Notes under the pieces: generated by a model | The model's database searches: none | What the model was told of the DNA's origin: nothing | The model's input: the letters and a program-made list of their open reading frames with translations, nothing else | From: a virus | Length of the DNA stretch: 30,948 nt | Reading direction: 5' to 3' (one strand) | IMG/VR virus record: IMGVR_UViG_3300044457_000006 | Span: 1 to 30,948 of that record | In this document: positions 2,274-28,967 of the stretch, piece by piece | Layout: every line of letters begins with the position of its first letter | How positions within the stretch are numbered: the stretch's first letter is position 1 | Program-made: the position numbers and the translations under genes

Positions 2274-5200
2274 TTAGAAGTTCGCTACCTTTCTGATAAC
2301 GTCCTTGTGTGTCTTTTGAACATTGGTTCGAGTCAGCACCTGCTTGCCCTCAATCAAGTCGTTAGAAAGGTTCCGATCAAGTTGAATAATCAGTGGCTGG
2401 CTGTTTCTTGAACCAGAGGTCGGGAATGGGATCACATTTGTGGGAGGCCCACTTCTTCCTGTTGCGGTCGCAGCACTGCCGCCGCTCGCTGCACTACCGC
2501 TCCCAGCAGACGCAGAGGAATTATGCTGGCTGAACTTAGATGCAAGACCAGTCATCACTGCACCGAATGCCAACATTGCTATACCGGCTGCGGCCAGTGC
2601 TCCAGCGCTCCAATTCAGCCCAGGAATGAAAGCAAAGCCAGCAGCAGCAAGCACGAACAATGTGCCAAGCTGAATTGCAATTTCGCCTATTATGCGGAAG
2701 AAGCTAACTAACAACGCATGACCTAAACTGTCAGTTCCAGCAACAGCCCCTGCAATCGCATCCGTGAATGCGTGAATCCCGGCAGTAAGCACGCCTTCCC
2801 AATCAACCATCTGCCTGAGCACATCTATAGCGGAAACATTTGTAGCCGTAAGCAGCCTTACTCGCTCTTCAAATTGATCAACTGAGCGGCTGGCTGAACC
2901 GAAATATTTGTCTACATCACTGGCAGCAATGCCAACGTCTTTCAATTTATCGAGCGAACCTTCGATCCTGAGATTAATTGCGAAGCTTTGCTCATCTGAC
3001 AAAGCGCCTGGACGTATTCTCGAAAGCAGTTGATTGCGTACCCGCTCAACCTCCTTCATCTGCTCAATCTGAAGTCTGTTTTGCTGCCTCCACCACAACA
3101 CATTGCTTTTATGCACATCATCAAGTAATTTGACCCTGATCTTATAAATATCTCCTGCGAGATTTCTTTCGGCCTCCAGAGCCTTTACGTTGAACTTATC
3201 GGTCTCATCCGACAACCATCTTAGATAATCGCCTTCGAGCGCTCGCTTATAATCATCCAATGCTATAAATATGAAAATGTCATCATCTGACATCTTGCGA
3301 AGCCTTCGCTCTTCTTGTGCGAACTCTGCTACAATCGTTGCTTGCCTTCTGTCAGTTTCCTCCTTGATTCCGCGTATCTGAATTTGGCGAATCCTGTCAT
3401 AAACGTCCTGCTCTGCATTGAGCCGCGCTTGCTCAATGCCAGCAATCTGCGCCCGCTCCATCCGATCAATAGCAGCAAGCGCAGCAGCCCTATCCCGGTT
3501 GTTTACTTGCAGGTGAGCGCGAAGAGCCTGCGCCTCGATATGGAACTTGGCTTCCTGCGCTCCAGGTGTAGAACCGCGCAAAGCTATCTCTGCTTCATCG
3601 GCCCGTTTGGCCAGGTCTATGAGGGCATTTGAATAAGAACGTGCGGCAGCAGCACCACCCTTATGATGTTCAGCACCTCTTTGAACTGAACTCGCAACCT
3701 TTTCGTGAATAGCAAAGAAAGTGGCCGCTGTATCCGCAGTCTGTTGTAATGCGCGCGCCGCTTCGAGTTCGGTTTGCTTCTTCTTATTTACGCCATCCGT
3801 GAGCGCGTGGGTTACGGTCAGTTCTTTTTGTTTGGCTCTGACCTGATCTTCGATAGCCGCTTGGTTAGCCAGATAAACATCTCTTTGACTCTTTCCGGCA
3901 GCCAGGTCACGATTGATCTGATCATTTAACTGCTCGCGCGTCTTCGCTTGCCCTTCACTGGTAGCTGAAAGATTACGTTGGGCAATTCTTACCGTATCCA
4001 GCGCCGCTGCCCACTCAAGTTCAGCACGCGCAGTTCCGTAAAGCACACCTATCATTTGTTCAAGCGCAGAACTGTTGATACCAAGCTGGCTTGCCTGATC
4101 TCTAAGCTTCTGCTCAGAAATATTCAATGTATCAACCAATCTGATAAGTGATTTTGAATGCTCTCTAAGCGTACCTTCAGCCTTGCTGCGTTCGTTTTCT
4201 TCGGTTTGCATCGCCAGTTTTGCAGCATCAATAGCCTCAACCTGTTGTTGCATTGCGTAATTTAAAGCTTCCTCAGTTCTGCTAAAACTCGTAGCTACTT
4301 TTGCCGCCTCTTCTTGTGAAACTGCCACTTCGCCGGTCAACACCTTCATCTTATATTGTGAAAAAGCTAATTCGTTTTGTTGATCGGCCAACCCTTCATT
4401 CGCGGCTCTCAAAATGTTTTGCGCTCTTATAGCCTCATTGGTTTTGTCATTTGCCTGATCGCTCGCTTTAGCAAAGTTCAACATTGTAGCTGCCAGGTCT
4501 ACGCCGAGAATTTGCTTCAGACTATCGTTTTGCTGATTAAGGCTACCTTTGAATATATCGCTCGCATTTGTGAGTTGGCCGAAGACTCTGGCTAAATCGA
4601 TGTCGCGCTGGATAAGCTCTTCGGTAACTCTTAAAGAATCCTCACTGACTTCTTTCTGCTTGTCCTGAGCTTCCCCAAGCTCAAGGAAGTGCCCAATCAG
4701 AGTGCCGCCCACGGTCAAAAGCAAAGACATCCCCACACTCATTCCACCGAGCGACCTGATCACTGCACTGACCGGCGCATCATATCCGGCCCAAGCGGTT
4801 CCCTGGCTTGAAATCTGAGTCGTCGTCGTATTCATAAGGGTAGAGAGAATACCCATAGCCCCGCTCGTTTTACCGAGGCTCTCATTCGATTTATCCTGTG
4901 CTGCGATTGTGGCGCTTGTGGCCTGGCGAATTCTTTCAAGCTCTGCGGCGGACTCTTGCCTTGCGGCAGCTACCCTTTGCATTGATGCAGCCGCACGGGC
5001 GGAAGCTGCGGTTTCATCACTCCATGCGGCTGCAAGTTTTCTTACTTCTGTTCCGGCTTGTGCCGCGCCAGCAGTGAAGCGCCTTGTTGCTTCTATGTTA
5101 GTGTTCACAGTAGCAGTAGCACTTTGCGCAGCCCTTTCATATCCAGACATCGCCGTCGCGGCGACAGCAGTTCCCGATTGCGCAGCAGCCCCTATGCCTT

Positions 5201-5285
5201 TGACATCACCACTTAATGCCTTCACGGTAGCGGCGGCTTGCGTCGCATCAGCAAGGATTACTACTGATACTTTCCTGTCACCCAT
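2274..5285 (-). CDS. Tape measure protein
   Basis: A very long helical protein of about 1003 residues, rich in Ala, Gln and Glu with long coiled-coil stretches, and a hydrophobic segment pair near the C-terminus (about residues 880-950 of this start, GEIAIQLGTLFVLAAAGFAF and a second Ala/Gly-rich helix). This is the typical build of a phage tape measure, which sets tail length and enters the cell envelope during DNA injection. I chose the ATG at 5285 because it overlaps the stop of the chaperone gene (ATGGGTGA) and has GAGAA upstream; an in-frame ATG at 5324 would add 13 residues inside the chaperone gene. By the usual rule of about 0.15 nm per residue the tail would be near 150 nm, an inference. 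It follows the frameshifted chaperone pair, as in lambda G-GT-H. Confidence 0.93.
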   Translation of the reverse strand: MGDRKVSVVILADATQAAATVKALSGDVKGIGAAAQSGTAVAATAMSGYERAAQSATATVNTNIEATRRFTAGAAQAGTEVRKLAAAWSDETAASARAAASMQRVAAARQESAAELERIRQATSATIAAQDKSNESLGKTSGAMGILSTLMNTTTTQISSQGTAWAGYDAPVSAVIRSLGGMSVGMSLLLTVGGTLIGHFLELGEAQDKQKEVSEDSLRVTEELIQRDIDLARVFGQLTNASDIFKGSLNQQNDSLKQILGVDLAATMLNFAKASDQANDKTNEAIRAQNILRAANEGLADQQNELAFSQYKMKVLTGEVAVSQEEAAKVATSFSRTEEALNYAMQQQVEAIDAAKLAMQTEENERSKAEGTLREHSKSLIRLVDTLNISEQKLRDQASQLGINSSALEQMIGVLYGTARAELEWAAALDTVRIAQRNLSATSEGQAKTREQLNDQINRDLAAGKSQRDVYLANQAAIEDQVRAKQKELTVTHALTDGVNKKKQTELEAARALQQTADTAATFFAIHEKVASSVQRGAEHHKGGAAAARSYSNALIDLAKRADEAEIALRGSTPGAQEAKFHIEAQALRAHLQVNNRDRAAALAAIDRMERAQIAGIEQARLNAEQDVYDRIRQIQIRGIKEETDRRQATIVAEFAQEERRLRKMSDDDIFIFIALDDYKRALEGDYLRWLSDETDKFNVKALEAERNLAGDIYKIRVKLLDDVHKSNVLWWRQQNRLQIEQMKEVERVRNQLLSRIRPGALSDEQSFAINLRIEGSLDKLKDVGIAASDVDKYFGSASRSVDQFEERVRLLTATNVSAIDVLRQMVDWEGVLTAGIHAFTDAIAGAVAGTDSLGHALLVSFFRIIGEIAIQLGTLFVLAAAGFAFIPGLNWSAGALAAAGIAMLAFGAVMTGLASKFSQHNSSASAGSGSAASGGSAATATGRSGPPTNVIPFPTSGSRNSQPLIIQLDRNLSNDLIEGKQVLTRTNVQKTHKDVIRKVANF

Positions 5286-6041
5286 CGTTTTTCTCGTTTG
5301 CTTTGAAAGCGTGATAGGCTTCACGCTCTCTCATTTTAGCTCTGGCAACACGGGCATATTCCCAAGTGAACATATCTATTTCCGCAAGGGGCGGTTTGCC
5401 AGTCTCGATATAATCAAGGGCGTCGAACGCTTCCAGAGCTGCGTCGTAGTAAAAAACATCACCGCATTTTTTAATGATGGCTTCGACTACACTTCGCTCG
5501 AATGAGCAAGCCGAACAACCTCCAGACTGATCGCGCAACGCCTTTTGAGTAAGCAGTGATCCATATTCATCCCAAATCCATTCGGAGCATCCGTCTTTGT
5601 GATAATCAATTTCATACGGGTTCTGCTTCTCTCGGCGCTTGATTATTATCCCGACCGCCCGTTTCAGTTTCCCAATTCTTCGGCTTCAGGAAGGGCTATG
5701 CGGAGATAGCGCCCAAGCACCATGTCTATGAGCAGTCCATATTGACCAGTGTCAGACAACATCACTTGTTTGGCGGTAGTATTATTATCAACCAACAACT
5801 TCTCTTCTGCTTCGGTAAGCCCTTCGATTGCTATGCACTTCTTTTCAAAGAGAAAGTACACTGCGGCTTCAGGATTACCCCTTTTTCTGCCACCGCGCCC
5901 GTATGTAATATCGTTGTAAGTTTTATGAGAAACCTTATCCAGCTTCTCAAACACAAAAATCCGATCCTGGCCCTCCGATGTGCGTGAGGGGACTTTCACC
6001 CGAATGTCATCATCAACGATTACGTCCTCAAAAAGCTTCAT
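5278..6041 (-). CDS. Tail assembly chaperone fusion (GT-like) made by -1 frameshift
   Basis: The frame downstream of the 125-residue chaperone is open from inside the end of that gene to the TGA at 5278, without a good start of its own: the only nearby start is a TTG at 5538, and about 43 in-frame codons precede it. The two frames overlap at the heptamer GGGAAAC (5667-5673), read as GGA AAC then TGA in the zero frame and as GGG AAA in the -1 frame. This is a textbook X XXY YYZ slippery site in exactly the lambda G/GT position. Slippage gives a protein of 254 residues whose extension starts LKRAVGIIIKRREKQNPYEI and contains several Cys. It would act with the shorter form to assemble the tail tube around the tape measure. 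I could not evaluate a stimulatory RNA fold. Confidence 0.8.
5664..6041 (-). CDS. Tail assembly chaperone (G-like)
   Basis: A soluble, charged 125-residue protein encoded between tail tube and tape measure, the standard place for the lambda G-type chaperone. The ATG at 6041 has a strong Shine-Dalgarno (AGGAGGGAATT). It ends four bases after the slippery GGGAAAC, so most ribosomes should stop here and a minority continue in the -1 frame. The role, by family knowledge, is to keep the tape measure soluble and recruit tube subunits; it is not expected in the finished virion. Sequence similarity alone would not identify it; position and the frameshift do. Confidence 0.8.
   Translation of the reverse strand: MKLFEDVIVDDDIRVKVPSRTSEGQDRIFVFEKLDKVSHKTYNDITYGRGGRKRGNPEAAVYFLFEKKCIAIEGLTEAEEKLLVDNNTTAKQVMLSDTGQYGLLIDMVLGRYLRIALPEAEELGN
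5667..5673 (-). promoter_or_regulatory. Slippery heptamer GGGAAAC for -1 ribosomal frameshifting
   Basis: Read on the minus strand, G GGA AAC sits in the zero frame immediately before the TGA of the short chaperone. Both P- and A-site tRNAs can re-pair at GGG AAA, giving the extended product. The site is of the class used by lambda (GGGAAAG). Confidence 0.82.
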
Positions 6042-6079: not shown

Positions 6080-7096
6080 TTACGGCGACGCAACGAGGTA
6101 GAGAGCCGAGCCGGTCTTGCAAGTCCACACATCCGGGCCGCTGTCAGCTATGATGTCCAGCGGGTCAACCTTGCAACTCAGCGTCGTCTCAAGGTCATCC
6201 GCATCCTCGTCTGCCGTGATGTAGATGCTATCCATCAACACCGATACTGATCGCGATGCGGATACGGTGAGAGACAACTGCAAAGTCAGTAGCGTCTCAG
6301 CGTCGGCGTACCCGTAGATCGCATCGCTCTTGTCGCCTGTCACGACAAATTCAACCGCAATGTTTGGATTACCTTTGCCGTACTTATAGCGCGGCACATA
6401 GATTCCGGCGTTAGCCGTTTTCGTCGGCACAACTCCATAGTTCTTTGTGATCTTCCACGAAAGAACTCTGTCCGTTATGTCAGTAACACCGCCTCCGTTT
6501 GGATAGAGTTTGAAAGCAAGGTGACTGTTGAGCAGTCCAGTAAGAGCAGTCAGCGATGACGGAAAACTGAACGATGATTTTGTCGTCTCTGATCCGTCGT
6601 GCTTCAGGTTATAGGTGAGCTTGACTTCATCACGCCCACTCCCTTCGAGCGTGAACTGATCAACGCAGACACCTTTATAAAGTTTATAGCCGCTGGTTAA
6701 GCCTGCGCAGACGATACCCTCCACGAGGCTTGTGCTATATGGATAGTTCGTGCAATTTGTCGGGTCTTTACCAGTATGTGTCCAGGGATCAGCCGAGCCG
6801 CTAGAAGCAAAGTTGCCGCCGCTGCCTAAAGCCAGCAACGATGTCACCATCTCAACTGTGGCATCCATCTTGCGGCTGATCATTCCGGCGCGCGATTTCA
6901 CCTGCCGCAACGTTTTGCCCCGCGCACCGTTGATCCTGCCCGCATTCGTGCGGAATTCCTTCTCGATCTTCGCAGGCGCGAATTCATCCATTTCGACCCA
7001 GGTCGTCAAATCCGCGTCTGCGACTTGCGTTCCGAAAACCGCCTCTCTCTTTGTCAGTGATAAAGCTTGACGAAAGGCATTTATATTACCGCCCAT
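6080..7096 (-). CDS. Major tail tube protein
   Basis: A 338-residue protein rich in Ser, Thr, Gly and Lys with alternating beta-strand composition and no signal peptide. It has a good Shine-Dalgarno (GAGGTGA) before the ATG. It lies between the tail terminator/completion genes and the tail chaperones, the conserved location for the tube subunit. N-terminal text such as QVADADLTTWVEMDEFAP and the C-terminal strands fit tube proteins of siphoviruses, which stack as hexameric rings around the tape measure. No sheath gene is next to it, which argues for a non-contractile tail. The assignment rests on length, composition and synteny. Confidence 0.75.
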   Translation of the reverse strand: MGGNINAFRQALSLTKREAVFGTQVADADLTTWVEMDEFAPAKIEKEFRTNAGRINGARGKTLRQVKSRAGMISRKMDATVEMVTSLLALGSGGNFASSGSADPWTHTGKDPTNCTNYPYSTSLVEGIVCAGLTSGYKLYKGVCVDQFTLEGSGRDEVKLTYNLKHDGSETTKSSFSFPSSLTALTGLLNSHLAFKLYPNGGGVTDITDRVLSWKITKNYGVVPTKTANAGIYVPRYKYGKGNPNIAVEFVVTGDKSDAIYGYADAETLLTLQLSLTVSASRSVSVLMDSIYITADEDADDLETTLSCKVDPLDIIADSGPDVWTCKTGSALYLVASP

Positions 7097-9740: not shown

Positions 9741-12239
9741 CTATGAGCCGATTGGCTGTGATTTCACAACAGGCTCCCACATACACGGCCCACCGCCGAA
9801 TATGAACCTGCACTTGTGGCGAGTAATCACATCGTTGTTGAACGCCTTTTCGTGCGTCTCGCCCATCATGTCGTAGAACTCAGGCTCTTCGTTGCCCATC
9901 CAGTAGCCGATCTCCACGATGTCTGCTTCCTTGTTGGAAGCCGTCACCATCCAGTCGTTTGAGTCGGGTAGAAAAGGCAGACCAACGGGGTTGATCTTCA
10001 CGCGGCCACCTGCGCTCCGCAGAAGGCGATCTAACGCGCTCGTATTACCGCCTGGTTCCTGATTGAAGTCAGTCAAAGTCTGAGCTTTCAAGATGCTATC
10101 TGAGCGCACTGCAAGCGTCAGATCGGTCAGATCAAATCCGAACTTCTCATTCGAGCCACGCTCGGTTTGCATCAACAGCTTGCCTAATGCGTTCTCCAGG
10201 CCGGTATTACCGAGAGCGTCCGTTATAAGGTTGTTGTGACTCGCGTGGAATAGCGCAAGACTGTCGCTTGCCATAGTAGGATTGCTGAAAAGGCAGTCCA
10301 ACCATACGAACTTTGCGAGTGTGCGCCGCGCGGCGCGTCCCATCTTGTCGGGAACCTGCCTTAGCGTCTTCGTCTCGTCGTTCGCTATCGTTTCAATTGT
10401 CAAATCGACGGTCTTACCGTGTTTTAGTGGCGAGTACGTCTCCTTGTCATCGGTCAGCGCCGCATAGGTTGTATACTCCCCGTTCTCTGCAACTACCGGC
10501 AGATCTCCATAGAAGCCGAGCACAATGATGATTTGGGGTTTGAAATCATCTAATGCCCGTTTGGTCACGACGCGAGGCAGGCCATAGTCATTCTCCCTAA
10601 ACGATGCGACCACGCGCTTATGCATCAGGTTCGACATCAGATCAGGGAAGTCTGACGTTTGATACGGCGTTTGCGACTGCCGGGCGAAGCGGCGGCCTTG
10701 TCGGTATGCGCGGCTGTTTATGCCTTGGAGGTTGTGATCGCCGGTCATATCGAAATACAGCCGCTTGACGCTGAAGATTTCCGGTGTGTCATTCCACTCC
10801 GACTCTGTTGGCCGGTATGGCGTATGCCCAGACTGCCTGACTTCCTGTTCGATGTAGCTTGATGTGCCCTCGAATTGTTGCCGGGTGAGTCCCATCATCT
10901 TCGCCGCGCCGAGTGTGATCTTGTCCAGCGAGTTCGCGCCGACAATCACAGTTCGACCATTATCAACCTGCCCTGATTGAGATAACACAGCCAAGGCTTC
11001 GCGCGTATCTTCGATCCGCGTGTTGATCTGATTTAAGGTGGTGTCTTTGGTTACTTTCTTACGCAGGCTTTGACGGACGGCTTCCTCCAGCCCTGAATCA
11101 TCAATGGCCTGATAGACCAGAGCTTGACGCACAACCAGCGGCAGCCGCTCGAACGGGATTTCATCATTATTAGCATTATTCTCCGTTCTCGCCTGTCTTG
11201 CAGTCTGCGTAGGTTCCTTTGTTGCTTCTTCAACGAAGCCGAGAGCCTGTTCGACAATGGCTTCGTCGGTGTGAATCGCTTCAACGATTTGTTCTGCTGT
11301 TGATTGACTGGTCACGCCCTGAGCGCCCCCGTTGACGAGCGATTGGCGCACGCTTTCAAATTGATCCGTGTTGAGGAAGTTGAATATGCTCAACAACGCT
11401 TTCTTATTCATCTCGTGTTCTCCTTGTTGCTGCTCGCGGTTGGACGCGAGGGCGTATTTCATGCGGCCCTTGGCTGCCGCTGTGGTTACAATGTCAATCG
11501 AGATCGGCTTGACCCTTTCGACATCAGTTGCTGGTTTTTGGTCAGTCCAGGTTACTTGCTTCGCCTGGATACCAACGAGAATTGAGGCTCCATAAAAATC
11601 GAGGTTCCCTGCTTTATAAGCAGCGTGCAAATCCTGGCGCAGCCAATCAGCGGAGGGTTTGATATGTAGTGTCATATCCATTCCCTGAGCCGTGATCTCC
11701 TTATCAGTCCACCATCCAACCTTGTTCTGTATTGAGCGTTCTGGAAGCTCGCGCATCTCTGTTTCAGTCGGATGATCCGCAAAGGCTCCGAGGTTCTCCC
11801 ACTCATAATCAGCAAAGGATTGTCTGAAGACTTCCGGTCGCCAGATGTGGCGCGTATCACTCAAGCCCCAGGCTACAACCTGAAATCGCCAAGCCCAACC
11901 TTCTTTGTCGAGGCTCTGCTTTATCGTCAGTTTATATGACTGCCTGACTTGAGTTTCAGCCTCTTGCTTATCAGGGTTGCCCACCTCAACATAAGACTCA
12001 GTGACTTCAACCGGCTCGCCAAACTTCACTTCTTCGCCTTCGATTGACCAGGCAATCCTGTAGGTCTTTCCGTCAATCTCGCTACAGGCGATTACTGAAT
12101 CATCAAAGACTTCTTTTGGGTAATAGAAGATCGGCTCATCACGCATCGGCTGGCGAAACGTCTTTCTGAGCGAGGCGTTTATTTTGTCAATCAGGTCGGT
12201 CAGGCTTGTACCCGACTGCTTGGTTATGTGAATTTTCAT
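9741..12239 (-). CDS. Prohead protease - scaffold - major capsid fusion protein
   Basis: One 832-residue open frame holds three roles that Mu separates into I, Z and T. Residues about 100-265 look like an HK97/Mu-type prohead serine protease: FADHP with candidate catalytic His156, FYGASI with candidate Ser219, and the IVTTAAAKG segment typical of the family C-terminus. Residues 277-430 are charged and helical, like a scaffold. Residues about 480-832 resemble Mu gpT-type major head protein (TLAKFVWLDCLFSN, FHASHNNLITDALGNTGLEN). A strong ribosome binding site precedes Met277, so a separate 556-residue scaffold-capsid could be made. The protease would cleave scaffold from capsid during prohead maturation. 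Fused protease-capsid proteins are known in some phages. Stop is TAG. Confidence 0.88.
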   Translation of the reverse strand: MKIHITKQSGTSLTDLIDKINASLRKTFRQPMRDEPIFYYPKEVFDDSVIACSEIDGKTYRIAWSIEGEEVKFGEPVEVTESYVEVGNPDKQEAETQVRQSYKLTIKQSLDKEGWAWRFQVVAWGLSDTRHIWRPEVFRQSFADYEWENLGAFADHPTETEMRELPERSIQNKVGWWTDKEITAQGMDMTLHIKPSADWLRQDLHAAYKAGNLDFYGASILVGIQAKQVTWTDQKPATDVERVKPISIDIVTTAAAKGRMKYALASNREQQQGEHEMNKKALLSIFNFLNTDQFESVRQSLVNGGAQGVTSQSTAEQIVEAIHTDEAIVEQALGFVEEATKEPTQTARQARTENNANNDEIPFERLPLVVRQALVYQAIDDSGLEEAVRQSLRKKVTKDTTLNQINTRIEDTREALAVLSQSGQVDNGRTVIVGANSLDKITLGAAKMMGLTRQQFEGTSSYIEQEVRQSGHTPYRPTESEWNDTPEIFSVKRLYFDMTGDHNLQGINSRAYRQGRRFARQSQTPYQTSDFPDLMSNLMHKRVVASFRENDYGLPRVVTKRALDDFKPQIIIVLGFYGDLPVVAENGEYTTYAALTDDKETYSPLKHGKTVDLTIETIANDETKTLRQVPDKMGRAARRTLAKFVWLDCLFSNPTMASDSLALFHASHNNLITDALGNTGLENALGKLLMQTERGSNEKFGFDLTDLTLAVRSDSILKAQTLTDFNQEPGGNTSALDRLLRSAGGRVKINPVGLPFLPDSNDWMVTASNKEADIVEIGYWMGNEEPEFYDMMGETHEKAFNNDVITRHKCRFIFGGGPCMWEPVVKSQPIGS
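11409..11425 (-). promoter_or_regulatory. Internal ribosome binding site and start within the protease-capsid gene
   Basis: AAGGAG (11420-11425) lies eight bases before an in-frame ATG (11409-11411) that begins MNKKALLSIFNFLNTDQ, residue 277 of the fusion. Spacing and sequence are ideal. It would yield a 556-residue scaffold-capsid product (9741-11411), analogous to nested Mu I/Z. Confidence 0.65.
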
Positions 12240-24459: not shown

Positions 24460-25476
24460 CTACCGTTTCTTTTTACTCTCCTGGCGAGATGAGAATCGCT
24501 CAAAGAGCTTTTCAAGCGGCACATTTGCATTCTGCTCGCGCCTGTTGCTGATCGTGTCAATCAGAGTATCCAGATCGCGATAGCGACCGAAGCTGCCGAC
24601 GCGCGCAAGCTGTACAACACGCTCGGTTATCTCTTTCCCGTCAAAGCTCTCTTCGAGCCTTGCTCGTATTTCGTCTTCTCCGAGCGTGCCGAGACTGATT
24701 GACAGCTTGAGCCTGGAATGTACTCGTTGCAGCTTCGAGGAACGAATTGTTTGAGCGAGTTCTTCAGTGCCTATCAACACCACGCCGTTTTTCGCATGGT
24801 TCCAGATATGAACGAGCTGATTGATTGATTCGATCTTTAAGAAGTTAGCCTCGTCAACAGCTAAGAGGCGCGGCTGCTCGGCTAGTAAGCCCCTCACGCG
24901 TTGGATGAGCAAGTCTTTCGAGCCGGTATCAATATCACCTAACGCCCTGCAAATCGCGGCAAGAAAAGCACGAGGGGTGATCCCATCATAGGATTCGACA
25001 ATGACCATACCGCTTCGCGCGTTGTGGTTTGCAAAGTGTCGTGTGATTAAAGTCTTGCCCATGCCAGAAGGGCCAACAATGTCAACAAACATCCTGCTGT
25101 CGTGCGCTTCTGCCAGGCCGTGCTGGACCAGTTTCGCAGCCGTCACAGTTTCGTCAATCGTGTCGGCTTTCCCGCCCTGCTCTCTGTGATCCAACCAGCC
25201 GCGCATACGATTCTCGAAGCGCTCAAGCATCTCCTGAGAGCTTGCCCATTTGCAGGTCAGGTAGTTATAAACCGTGCTTTCACCCATCCCAACATTTTGA
25301 GCACGACCGCTCTCACCTTTACGCCGTCCATAAAACAGTTGCATTGCGCGACTGATCTGAGCGTTTGACCACTGGTACTTTTCTTTGAAAGCGAGTAACC
25401 GCTGGCGCAGTTTTTCATCCCACTTTACTGAGCCTCGATTGATGTCGGTTACGAATGCTGTATTGGGTTGAGTCAT
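24460..25476 (-). CDS. MuB-like transposition target-selection ATPase (AAA+)
   Basis: A 338-residue ATPase with an N-terminal DNA-binding region (about 20-95, SNAQISRAMQLFYGRRKGES then GESTVYNYL, a helix-turn-helix as in MuB) and an AAA+ domain: Walker A GPSGMGKT at 135-142, Walker B LLAVDEAN at 204-211, VVLIGTEEL (about 232-240) as sensor 1, and Arg candidates near 251-255. In Mu, B binds target DNA as ATP filaments, delivers it to the transpososome and gives target immunity. Good AGGAG Shine-Dalgarno. It is separated from the transposase by three small genes, unlike the direct A-B order in Mu. Confidence 0.92.
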   Translation of the reverse strand: MTQPNTAFVTDINRGSVKWDEKLRQRLLAFKEKYQWSNAQISRAMQLFYGRRKGESGRAQNVGMGESTVYNYLTCKWASSQEMLERFENRMRGWLDHREQGGKADTIDETVTAAKLVQHGLAEAHDSRMFVDIVGPSGMGKTLITRHFANHNARSGMVIVESYDGITPRAFLAAICRALGDIDTGSKDLLIQRVRGLLAEQPRLLAVDEANFLKIESINQLVHIWNHAKNGVVLIGTEELAQTIRSSKLQRVHSRLKLSISLGTLGEDEIRARLEESFDGKEITERVVQLARVGSFGRYRDLDTLIDTISNRREQNANVPLEKLFERFSSRQESKKKR

Positions 25477-25541
25477 TCATTCTCCTGTTGATTTGGCCGA
25501 ACCCTTCAGCTAGGATTCGGGAACATTCGTGAGTTCGGTTT

Positions 25542-25562
25542 GGCGCTGTTGGTAGCAGCGCC
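25542..25562. other. 7-bp hairpin between small gene and MuB-like gene
   Basis: GGCGCTG and CAGCGCC flank a seven-base loop, directly after the stop of the 140-residue gene. The minus-strand downstream lacks a U-tract (AAACCGAAC), although the plus strand has TTTCTTATTTC. A further repeat, CCGAAC (25497-25502) with GTTCGG (25533-25538), lies in the same gap. It may modulate MuB expression. Confidence 0.4.
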
Positions 25563-25566
25563 TTTC

Positions 25567-25989
25567 TTATTTCGGCAATCTGCGTCTTAGATTTCGGTCG
25601 AGAATTGTTGGATCGTATTCCTTCAATATCTTGTTGATCAGTCGCAGAGCGTCTTCGCTGCCTAGCTTCTCTCTATCGCCAAGGTTCGCGTAGGTTTTCG
25701 CTGCAACTCCTGCCAGTTGCTCAATCACAACCTGCGCTCCTATTGTTGCTGGGTCTGGTTGGTTTATCCCCTTGCCTGTCATTTCTCCCTCCCGTTTTTT
25801 GAGAATTTCCTGCCTGAATTTCAGAACTGTTTCGTGAGATAAATTCGGATTAAATAAGGTGATGAGTTGACGCCCGCTAAGTATCCTGAGCAATTCGATT
25901 GGAAGCTGCTTCAGATTCAAGATCAAACGTGCTGTTTCAGCTTCGATCTCTGATCGGGTTCTAGTAGGGATGTATGCTTCTCTGCCCAT
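25567..25989 (-). CDS. Hypothetical early protein between transposase and MuB
   Basis: A 140-residue, helical, charged protein (SEIEAETARLILNLKQLPIE; LFNPNLSHETVLKFRQEILK; LGSEDALRLINKILKEYDPT) with no signal peptide or Cys motifs. Start is three bases after the previous stop, with no strong Shine-Dalgarno, so translation is probably coupled. No family recognised. Being in the A-B interval it may assist transposition, but that is only location-based. Confidence 0.6.
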   Translation of the reverse strand: MGREAYIPTRTRSEIEAETARLILNLKQLPIELLRILSGRQLITLFNPNLSHETVLKFRQEILKKREGEMTGKGINQPDPATIGAQVVIEQLAGVAAKTYANLGDREKLGSEDALRLINKILKEYDPTILDRNLRRRLPK

Positions 25990-25991
25990 CT

Positions 25992-26252
25992 TTACAGTTC
26001 GCCTTCTTGGTATTCGATTTCAGGGACTTCAATATGCTGGCAAATGACAAGCGCGGCCTTTACCTGCTGCCCTTTTACCATCTCTCCAGCGACAGCAACG
26101 TCCTTTAATACAATGCGCGCGCGGCTTATGAATTCTTCAACAGCCACGTATGGAGAGAACCGCAACCGAGTCGCGGCCTGTTGCATCTCCAATCCAAGCC
26201 TTTCGAGAATGCCCGATAATTCAGCTTCCACTTCCATCTCGTCATCTGTCAT
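25992..26252 (-). CDS. Small acidic helical early protein
   Basis: About 86 residues from the ATG at 26252, chosen over an upstream GTG (26261) since GAGGTGA then sits at normal Shine-Dalgarno distance. N-terminal DDEMEVEAELSGILERLGLE is strongly acidic and helical; the remainder is helix (EEFISRARIVLKDVAVAGEM) and a strand (KAALVICQHIEV). No recognised family. Confidence 0.6.
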   Translation of the reverse strand: MTDDEMEVEAELSGILERLGLEMQQAATRLRFSPYVAVEEFISRARIVLKDVAVAGEMVKGQQVKAALVICQHIEVPEIEYQEGEL

Positions 26253-26262
26253 TTCGATCACC

Positions 26263-26481
26263 TCAGTTCAACCTTGCATTTCGCTTGACACGCTCGCGTA
26301 GAGCCTCGTCAACGCCAACTTCCCTGATGCGCGCAAGTGTTGTTGCGCCTGGTTGCACTTGGTTGCGCTTCTCGGCTTCTGCTTCGAATTGTGCTTTTAG
26401 ATATAAGCCAACCAAGTACATCGAGATGCCACCTGCAAGCATCCCCAAGAAAAAGACAATCGTTAATAATGTGGTTAGCAT
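26263..26481 (-). CDS. Small single-pass membrane protein
   Basis: 72 residues from the ATG at 26481, which overlaps the transposase stop (TAATG) and has GGAGG upstream. An N-terminal membrane helix (LTTLLTIVFFLGMLAGGISM and onward, about 1-30) precedes a basic/charged cytoplasmic-type tail (EAEAEKRNQVQPGATTLARI and ERVKRNARLN). Membrane proteins made early, coupled to transposase, sometimes act in superinfection exclusion or control; there is no evidence for either here. Confidence 0.6.
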   Translation of the reverse strand: MLTTLLTIVFFLGMLAGGISMYLVGLYLKAQFEAEAEKRNQVQPGATTLARIREVGVDEALRERVKRNARLN

Positions 26482-28913
26482 TAGTCCTCCCACCCTGCTT
26501 TGATCTCATCAGAGCTACCGTCTGACTCAAAGGTCTTCAAAGAATTGAATTCGTCTTCATCCTGTCGCGTATTCACAACGCGTAGATGTGATACTGCGGA
26601 GGTGGGCGCGTTCAGCAGCGCATCTGACGACTTGCGATCAAACCGAGTTAAGACTGTTACTGATGCGCCTCTATCTGCTGAATCAGGAAGCTCAATCGGC
26701 GTGATGTCATCGGCTCCAACTGCCAATGGTAATGCTTCCGGCAACCGTTCAGCCGCATAATCTCGCCAGTCCGAAGGCTGTTGTGTTTTGAAGAACTCTT
26801 GCGCAGTCTGCTTGGCTTTTTTCTTGTCAGCGTTCGCGCGCTGGAAGTCATCCCGCGAAGCATTCCAGCCCATCAGTTGTGGACTCTCTACCCAGCAAAG
26901 CGTTACGCCCTGGGCCAATACTAATGCGCGACCAACGTTCGCAGGGTTATATCTCACTTCGACTTTCATTCGTTCAGGCAGGCGCATTAAGGCTGTACCA
27001 TCACTCAGGTCAGAAGAGACTTCGTTGTAGACAAATTTCTCTCCGAACCAGCGCATAGTGATCTTGTCGGCGTCAACCATCTCAACCCGTGCCAACATAG
27101 CCAACGCTGTGAGCGTAGTTTCTCGCATCGCGTGCGGCTCACCACCGAAGAGATTGATGTACTCTACTGGCGACATCTCGCCGCGCTCATTTGCAAGCGA
27201 GCCGTGCGGCTTCTGGTTGTAGGCAATCATCTGTGATTTGAAAGCCAAGCGCAGGTCGGCTTCGCTTAGAAAGGGCGTGCCGAAGCCATATCGGTCTCGG
27301 TAAACTTCATACGTGTCGCGCCAGAGCGGAGGGAGTTGGCTTAGATCTTCAGCCTTCGGTGCGTGCCCGTTTGCAAATGTCTTATGAACTGCCAATGCAG
27401 CTTTGTAGAAGTGTGGCTTTGCGGTCGTCTTATTGCCACAGAAGCCCGGCAATCCTTCTTCCCACAATCCAATACCATAACGATGAAACGGCTCAACTGT
27501 CTTTGATTTCGCGTTATATGGCTTTGCGTGACGAACTTTAAATTGAGCATCTACAGCCAAGCCGATTTTTAAGCTTTCAAGAATGCTGACTAACCCATTT
27601 TCAAGCTCAATTTTTCCGACCTTGATTTCCTTGCCCTCTACAATGTGTGCAGTGAACTCGCGCCCGTTGTCCCAAAGAGCAAATGGCTCGATACCGTTTG
27701 CACCACGTTGCTGTCCATACAATTTCTCAAAGCCTGCCTCCTGCTTCCATTGTGAGAAGCTAAGAGCATCAACGTAGGCGAGCGTGACACCCTTCGCCGA
27801 AGGCTTTTCATCTATGTGCCAGCCGAATACAGCGCGAGCCTTCAGGTCAAACACCGTGCAGAGCGTGAGCCGCACAAGAGCAGGCTTTTTGCTCTTGTCT
27901 TTTTTAAAAGGGAGCCAGCAAGCAAGATCGAAGGTGCGATAATCCATCGTCCATCCGACGCGCGGTTCCAAATCCTCATAATTGCGAGTGATGATGGCAA
28001 AGCGATTTTCGACGCCTCGCATACCCTCACGCGCAAGAACCATCGAGACGGCAGGCACGCTCTTTTTCCAGCGGGATAGGAAGTAATAGCAGGTATTCGG
28101 AACACCCGGCCTTGACTCCGTGAAAGGCAGCTTCACATCATTACGTCTTGCCCATTCAAGCCAACGCTCACCGTATAACGTCACCGAAGATTTGACGTAA
28201 GACTTCAAATTCACGCGCAACCAATCAATTGCTTCAAGAGGCATATCTACAAAGCGTTTGTCTTTCGCCGGTGAGAGCGTTTGCGTTTGTCGGATGAACG
28301 CGACCAGACCTTTCTTTTGATATTTGTCGAGCAAACGCAGGAAGGTTGAAGTCGAGAGAGGCTTCGAGGCTGAAGGGTACATTTCAAGGTAGACAGGATC
28401 GGTAGAAGCGGTGCGCGCGGCCAGCTCAGCGAGCGAAGGGTGATAGGCTCGACCAGGACCGGCTTCATTCGCGCCTGACGATGCTACTGAGATACCTGTC
28501 GTTTGCTTCAGTTTGCCGATCAGCCTAATTGCGCTGTCGCACAGTTGAGCGAGTTCAAGACAGCGGCTCTCGACGGCTTGGCGCTGATCGAGCGTGTACT
28601 GAGGCGGCGAGAAGCGAGCGAGCGCGACTTGCAGTGCTTGGAGACGACTGTCTGGAGAAGGTGTTAGATCAGCCCGTCCCTCTATGCTGCAATCCCCTGC
28701 CGCGCTCGCTCCCCTCTCGGCGTCGAGCCTTGCCCATTTCAGTTGCAGGTCTGACGGTAAGCTGCTCAGTAGGATTAGATTGCGTGGTCTGCCAACCTGC
28801 CCTTGTCCGCTTTCCTGTATGGCAATCCACAGACCACCGTTAACACGCCTTTTTATCGTGCGTTCGCTTACTCCTAAAAGCAACAGATCTTTCGTCGAAA
28901 TGTAAACTGACAT
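26481..28913 (-). CDS. MuA-like DDE transposase
   Basis: An 810-residue transposase from the ATG at 28913; a TTG at 28940 would add nine residues. Domain order follows MuA: an N-terminal winged helix (STKDLLLLGVSERTIKRRV), helical DNA-binding regions to about 300, then the RNase H-fold core with WTMDYRTFDL (candidate Asp324), FALWDNGREF (Asp415) and AKSKTVEPFHR (Glu474), spaced 91 and 59 residues, comparable to MuA. A beta-barrel-like domain follows (about 600-690, KVEVRYNPANVGRALVLAQG) and a C-terminal region with charged residues, as needed for MuB contact. It cuts phage ends and joins them to target DNA for integration and replicative transposition. Confidence 0.95.
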   Translation of the reverse strand: MSVYISTKDLLLLGVSERTIKRRVNGGLWIAIQESGQGQVGRPRNLILLSSLPSDLQLKWARLDAERGASAAGDCSIEGRADLTPSPDSRLQALQVALARFSPPQYTLDQRQAVESRCLELAQLCDSAIRLIGKLKQTTGISVASSGANEAGPGRAYHPSLAELAARTASTDPVYLEMYPSASKPLSTSTFLRLLDKYQKKGLVAFIRQTQTLSPAKDKRFVDMPLEAIDWLRVNLKSYVKSSVTLYGERWLEWARRNDVKLPFTESRPGVPNTCYYFLSRWKKSVPAVSMVLAREGMRGVENRFAIITRNYEDLEPRVGWTMDYRTFDLACWLPFKKDKSKKPALVRLTLCTVFDLKARAVFGWHIDEKPSAKGVTLAYVDALSFSQWKQEAGFEKLYGQQRGANGIEPFALWDNGREFTAHIVEGKEIKVGKIELENGLVSILESLKIGLAVDAQFKVRHAKPYNAKSKTVEPFHRYGIGLWEEGLPGFCGNKTTAKPHFYKAALAVHKTFANGHAPKAEDLSQLPPLWRDTYEVYRDRYGFGTPFLSEADLRLAFKSQMIAYNQKPHGSLANERGEMSPVEYINLFGGEPHAMRETTLTALAMLARVEMVDADKITMRWFGEKFVYNEVSSDLSDGTALMRLPERMKVEVRYNPANVGRALVLAQGVTLCWVESPQLMGWNASRDDFQRANADKKKAKQTAQEFFKTQQPSDWRDYAAERLPEALPLAVGADDITPIELPDSADRGASVTVLTRFDRKSSDALLNAPTSAVSHLRVVNTRQDEDEFNSLKTFESDGSSDEIKAGWED

Positions 28914-28967
28914 ACAGGTCAACCGCTGAGAGCCATTCAAGATCGTTCAATTTGAGGAATCAGGTAT

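Follow-up and report, generated by a model that had tools for sequence, protein, structure and literature searches.

The window analysed here comprises 30,948 bases of viral sequence and contains what is very probably a phage-lambda-type G/G-T locus with a -1 programmed frameshift at the heptamer GGGAAAC, joining two overlapping frames as a preliminary description of this DNA had proposed. Such a frameshift, predicted to yield a short protein (G) and a longer fusion (G-T), is by far the best supported reading of the locus, because the heptamer sits in the exact register, the -1 codons upstream of the first possible start (a TTG) are coding-like, the local order is tube-G-T-tape measure, and the same architecture is found in half of the capsid-related viruses tested (25 of 50 loci).

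Frame layout and the slippery heptamer

The features of the locus and of the genes flanking it are the following:

6080..7096, minus strand: tail tube protein, 338 aa, upstream of G (PHROG 290, E=4.2e-5; Pfam Phage_tube_2, E=2.8e-4, below the Pfam cut-off)
5664..6041, minus strand: G frame, 125 aa, with AGGAGG upstream of ATG 6041; predicted tail assembly chaperone, short form
5667..5673, minus strand: slippery heptamer G GGA AAC, in register and abutting the G stop codon
5278..5667, minus strand: T frame (-1), 129 codons plus stop; predicted to be read only after the frameshift, giving a G-T fusion of 254 aa
5602..5662, minus strand: possible pseudoknot, ACGGG/CCCGU plus AUAAUCAA/UUGAUUAU, equalled in 4.2% of shuffles
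2274..5285, minus strand: tail tape measure protein (PHROG 167, tail length tape measure protein, E=1.2e-6)

The G frame has a strong ribosome-binding site (AGGAGG before the ATG) and a coding log-odds of 0.169 per codon, similar to that of the other genes in the window, and its 3' end reads TTG GGA AAC TGA, with the stop at 5666-5664 (minus strand). The preliminary description had placed GGGAAAC directly before this stop, and both position and register are borne out: at 5673-5667 (minus strand) the heptamer has the register that tandem -1 slippage requires. The -1 frame is indeed open throughout, from 5685 to the TGA at 5280-5278, and it is closed upstream by a stop at 5688-5686, which confines the slip to the 22-nt overlap. 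A -1 slip at GGGAAAC gives a product of exactly 254 residues, the length given earlier, with the predicted junction ...EELGN-LKRAVG.... The -1 frame was also said to have no good start codon of its own, and past the heptamer its first ATG, GTG or TTG is TTG 5538, with AAGG only 2 nt away; a start-codon search would, as that description warned, return 86 residues from this TTG and lose 43 codons.

As a bare string GGGAAAC is unremarkable, because 3.1 copies are expected in the window by chance (there is one); its place and register are the notable part. Under a simple Markov model, the 22-nt overlap would hold an X XXY YYZ heptamer with Y=A/T in register with a probability of ~0.012, or ~0.018 if any in-register X XXY YYZ is allowed, while a run of 131 stop-free codons has P ~0.0007 (~0.07%; first-order Markov model). 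Elsewhere in the genes of the window, in-register heptamers have at most 32 open -1 codons after them. Codons 1-43 of T, which precede the TTG, score 0.072, compared with 0.122±0.074 for in-frame and -0.140±0.096 for off-frame codons, and 0.97% of off-frame windows score as high; this coding-type usage argues that the T region upstream of TTG 5538 is translated.

Nested folding downstream of the heptamer was not significant, and the crossing pairing listed above is not claimed as a pseudoknot, both because shuffled sequences equal it at the rate given and because it was spotted before testing; nested folding and the comparison of crossing pairing with shuffles thus gave no significant candidate for a stimulatory RNA structure downstream of GGGAAAC. 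A search of Rfam returned a single sub-threshold match, located inside G, which we take as chance.

Gene neighbourhood, related viruses and known systems

The two overlapping frames lie between the tube and tape measure genes in the order tube-G-T-tape measure, and the tape measure gene, with its ATG at 5285, shares 8 nt with the end of T, its stop included. Going downstream from the large terminase subunit, the genes are those for the portal, a Mu F-like head morphogenesis protein and a protease-capsid fusion; then come small head/tail genes, the tail tube gene, G, T, the tape measure gene and one for a lambda-J-like fibre protein. Upstream of the structural genes are a Mu-type transposase (PHROG 310, E=2e-44) and a TniB/AAA ATPase, which place transposition genes (24460-28940, minus strand) on the same record as siphophage structural genes; the transposase has no tblastn match among 50,697 phage records. 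From this combination of transposition and structural genes the virus looks like a transposable siphophage, and the window is a virus contig, not a demonstrated prophage. A separate observation concerns the 832-aa protease-capsid fusion (9741-12239, minus strand), in which a [V/A/F]RQ[S/A] motif recurs at residues 99, 139, 298, 348, 371, 389, 468 and 520. Its copies use differing codons, are mostly kept in the related contig L002 and fall nearly all before the capsid domain (517-818), and the motif may indicate where the head maturation protease cleaves itself.

A capsid-domain profile recovered 80 viral contigs, among which 50 loci (three from isolated phages) extend as far as a long ORF resembling a tape measure gene. 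An arrangement was counted as matching when a canonical in-register heptamer lay no more than 25 codons from the stop of G, the -1 frame ran for 50-200 codons and a tape measure gene started near its end. It was found at 25 of the 50 loci, which are partly non-independent (L022/L030/L031, L079-L081 and L083/L084 look alike) and among which some matches, e.g. L005, L018 and L065, may be chance, as compared with 0-2 of 50 when the heptamers were permuted; stricter limits gave 18 of 50 and 0, respectively. Register-shifted heptamers gave 4/50 and 3/50, matches tentatively attributed to long A runs, and the permuted heptamers are the cleaner control. The heptamers of the relatives are AAAAAAC, GGGAAAC, AAAAAAG, GGGAAAG and a few weaker ones. 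The preliminary description had proposed to ask whether GGGAAAC and the -1 frame are conserved in relatives: the arrangement recurs and GGGAAAC itself varies, so that across these viruses it is apparently the mechanism that is conserved and not the letters of the heptamer. Recognised chaperones also occur among the relatives: at the same position, the G of L079 matches Phage_TAC_2 (lambda gpG; E=5e-35) and that of L013 matches Phage_TAC_4, and L073 has a PHROG chaperone match.

The nearest contigs by capsid segment, L002 (84%), L009 (77%) and L010 (59%), all end within or before the tube gene and thus before G-T. L002 (1-2586) has an 805-aa ORF in place of the window's portal region, with a short tape-measure-like match overlapping the ORF start, and may be a rearranged or chimeric contig. 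Two separate ORFs, of ~250-300 and 122-126 codons and without a matching heptamer, occupy the place of G-T in L040 and L045 (the two relatives with a tube homologue) and in L014 and L015, and at L012 two ORFs at this position overlap by 4 bases. The ORFs of L040, L045, L014 and L015 have no detectable homology to the window's G or T, and these loci therefore neither refute nor support the site in the window. The pair itself (L040 14452-15614, L045 14821-15958, L014 14787-15923, L015 15026-16296) is conserved between tube and tape measure as a protein of 252-297 aa and one of 122-126 aa that has a zinc-like CxxC...CxxC motif at its end, and is a possible frameshift-free alternative to G-T.

Phage lambda reportedly produces its tail chaperones G and G-T through a frameshift of this kind (Levin 1993; Xu, Hendrix and Duda 2004; reviewed in PMC5009743). 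The window shares with lambda the tube-G-T-tape measure order, a -1 slip close to where G ends, a T that is read through the shift and the adjoining of T and the tape measure gene, and differs in having GGGAAAC where the lambda slippery site is GGGAAAG, in a heptamer that abuts the stop and in the lack of detectable sequence similarity. A review that covers the lambda system describes low-level G-T frameshifting as widely conserved among long-tailed phages even though their sequences are little alike, and it assigns G_GGA_AAC to the g-t frameshift of the haloarchaeal virus HCTV-1 (PMC5009743). The published site of HCTV-1 is thus the same heptamer as in the window, but its host is archaeal.

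Among the capsid-related viruses, Microcystis phage Mae-JY22 (PP438414, L003) has the same local gene order, homologous capsid, head-morphogenesis (F-like) and g234 genes, an AAAAAAC in matching register, a -1 frame of 112 codons and a tape measure gene overlapping T, but the heptamer is a different one, located nine codons before the stop, and its G and T are without detectable homology to those of the window. The deposited annotation of this phage has two separate hypothetical proteins and lacks the first part of T; at L003 11556-11900, where they are listed, an AAAAAAC -1 frameshift fusion is likely. In the IMG/VR contigs L027 and L029, GGGAAAC abuts the G stop, T has 145 and 128 codons, respectively, and the tape measure gene comes next; unlike the window's T, that of L029 matches DUF1799, and the window's T does not match a profile of the T proteins of these two contigs.

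Identity of G and T and competing explanations

Neither G nor T has a significant family match in Pfam, PHROGs or NCBIfam, and neither matches a profile of the known TAC families (Pfam Phage_TAC_*, PHROG chaperone families). No significant homologues of either were found in phages, viral contigs or genome contigs, direct searches for relatives by tube, portal and tape measure found none, and comparison with profiles of the relatives' G and T proteins gave no similarity; single-sequence AlphaFold models have a mean pLDDT of 41 (G) and 54 (T). Because neither half matches a family, the 'tail chaperone' label of the preliminary description rests on position and architecture, both of which speak for it. 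It is conceivable, though in our view rather improbable, that G and T are a chaperone pair unrelated in sequence to others, possibly a new family or fold with an independently acquired frameshift arrangement. The missing family match would also suit a frameshifted pair with a role other than tail-assembly chaperoning, which we consider the least probable of all the alternatives, given that tail chaperone pairs are defined by their place between tube and tape measure, and that recognised chaperones occupy this place in relatives.

Two further explanations dispense with programmed frameshifting and are, to a similar degree, very unlikely. T might be an independently initiated small protein, perhaps coupled to G termination, starting at TTG 5538 (86 aa) or at a non-standard ATT 5676 or CTG 5667. 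The TTG is present with AAGG upstream, and adjacent or 4-nt-overlapping ORFs stand at the G-T position in L012, L014, L015, L040 and L045, but the AAGG is too close to the TTG for a normal ribosome-binding site, and a start there would leave the coding-like codon usage upstream unexplained, which argues that T codons 1-43 are translated. In addition, the in-register heptamer would have to be a coincidence (P ~1%), and the G/G-T architecture recurs at 25 of the 50 related loci. Alternatively, a single 254-codon gene could have been broken in the GGG/AAA run by a sequencing or assembly indel or by a natural frameshift mutation: the contig belongs to a collection of viruses drawn mostly from metagenomes, homopolymers are error-prone and no close relative spans the GGGAAAC site. 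Such a break would, however, have had to fall exactly on a canonical in-register heptamer abutting the stop, and in the very gene in which a frameshift is expected, as in the relatives.

Predicted decoding and significance

From the layout we infer slippage at GGGAAAC, presumably at a low efficiency, and from position and architecture a tail chaperone function for its products. In the lambda model, most ribosomes produce G and a few per cent produce G-T, with G binding the tape measure protein and T recruiting tube subunits (PMC5009743). At the window locus, ribosomes would start at ATG 6041 and most would stop at 5666-5664, giving the 125-aa G. In a small fraction, the tRNAs on GGA and AAC would slip back by one base onto GGG and AAA, and these ribosomes would bypass the G stop and continue in the -1 frame as far as 5278, giving the 254-aa G-T. 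By analogy with lambda, G would serve as a coat for the tape measure protein, and tail-tube subunits would be recruited through the T domain of G-T; the ratio of G to G-T, which the slippery site sets, would therefore matter for tail assembly.

The immediate consequence is a corrected annotation, with a 254-aa G-T and a 125-aa G in place of the frame that a gene finder relying on start codons would truncate to 86 aa or drop. Frameshifting of this sort is ordinary for tailed phages, although the G and T sequences here have no match in the databases covered. A well-studied group of programmed frameshifts thereby gains an orphan example, in a virus that also carries Mu-type transposition genes. 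The locus also suggests that position together with an in-register heptamer can point to tail chaperones once sequence similarity has vanished.
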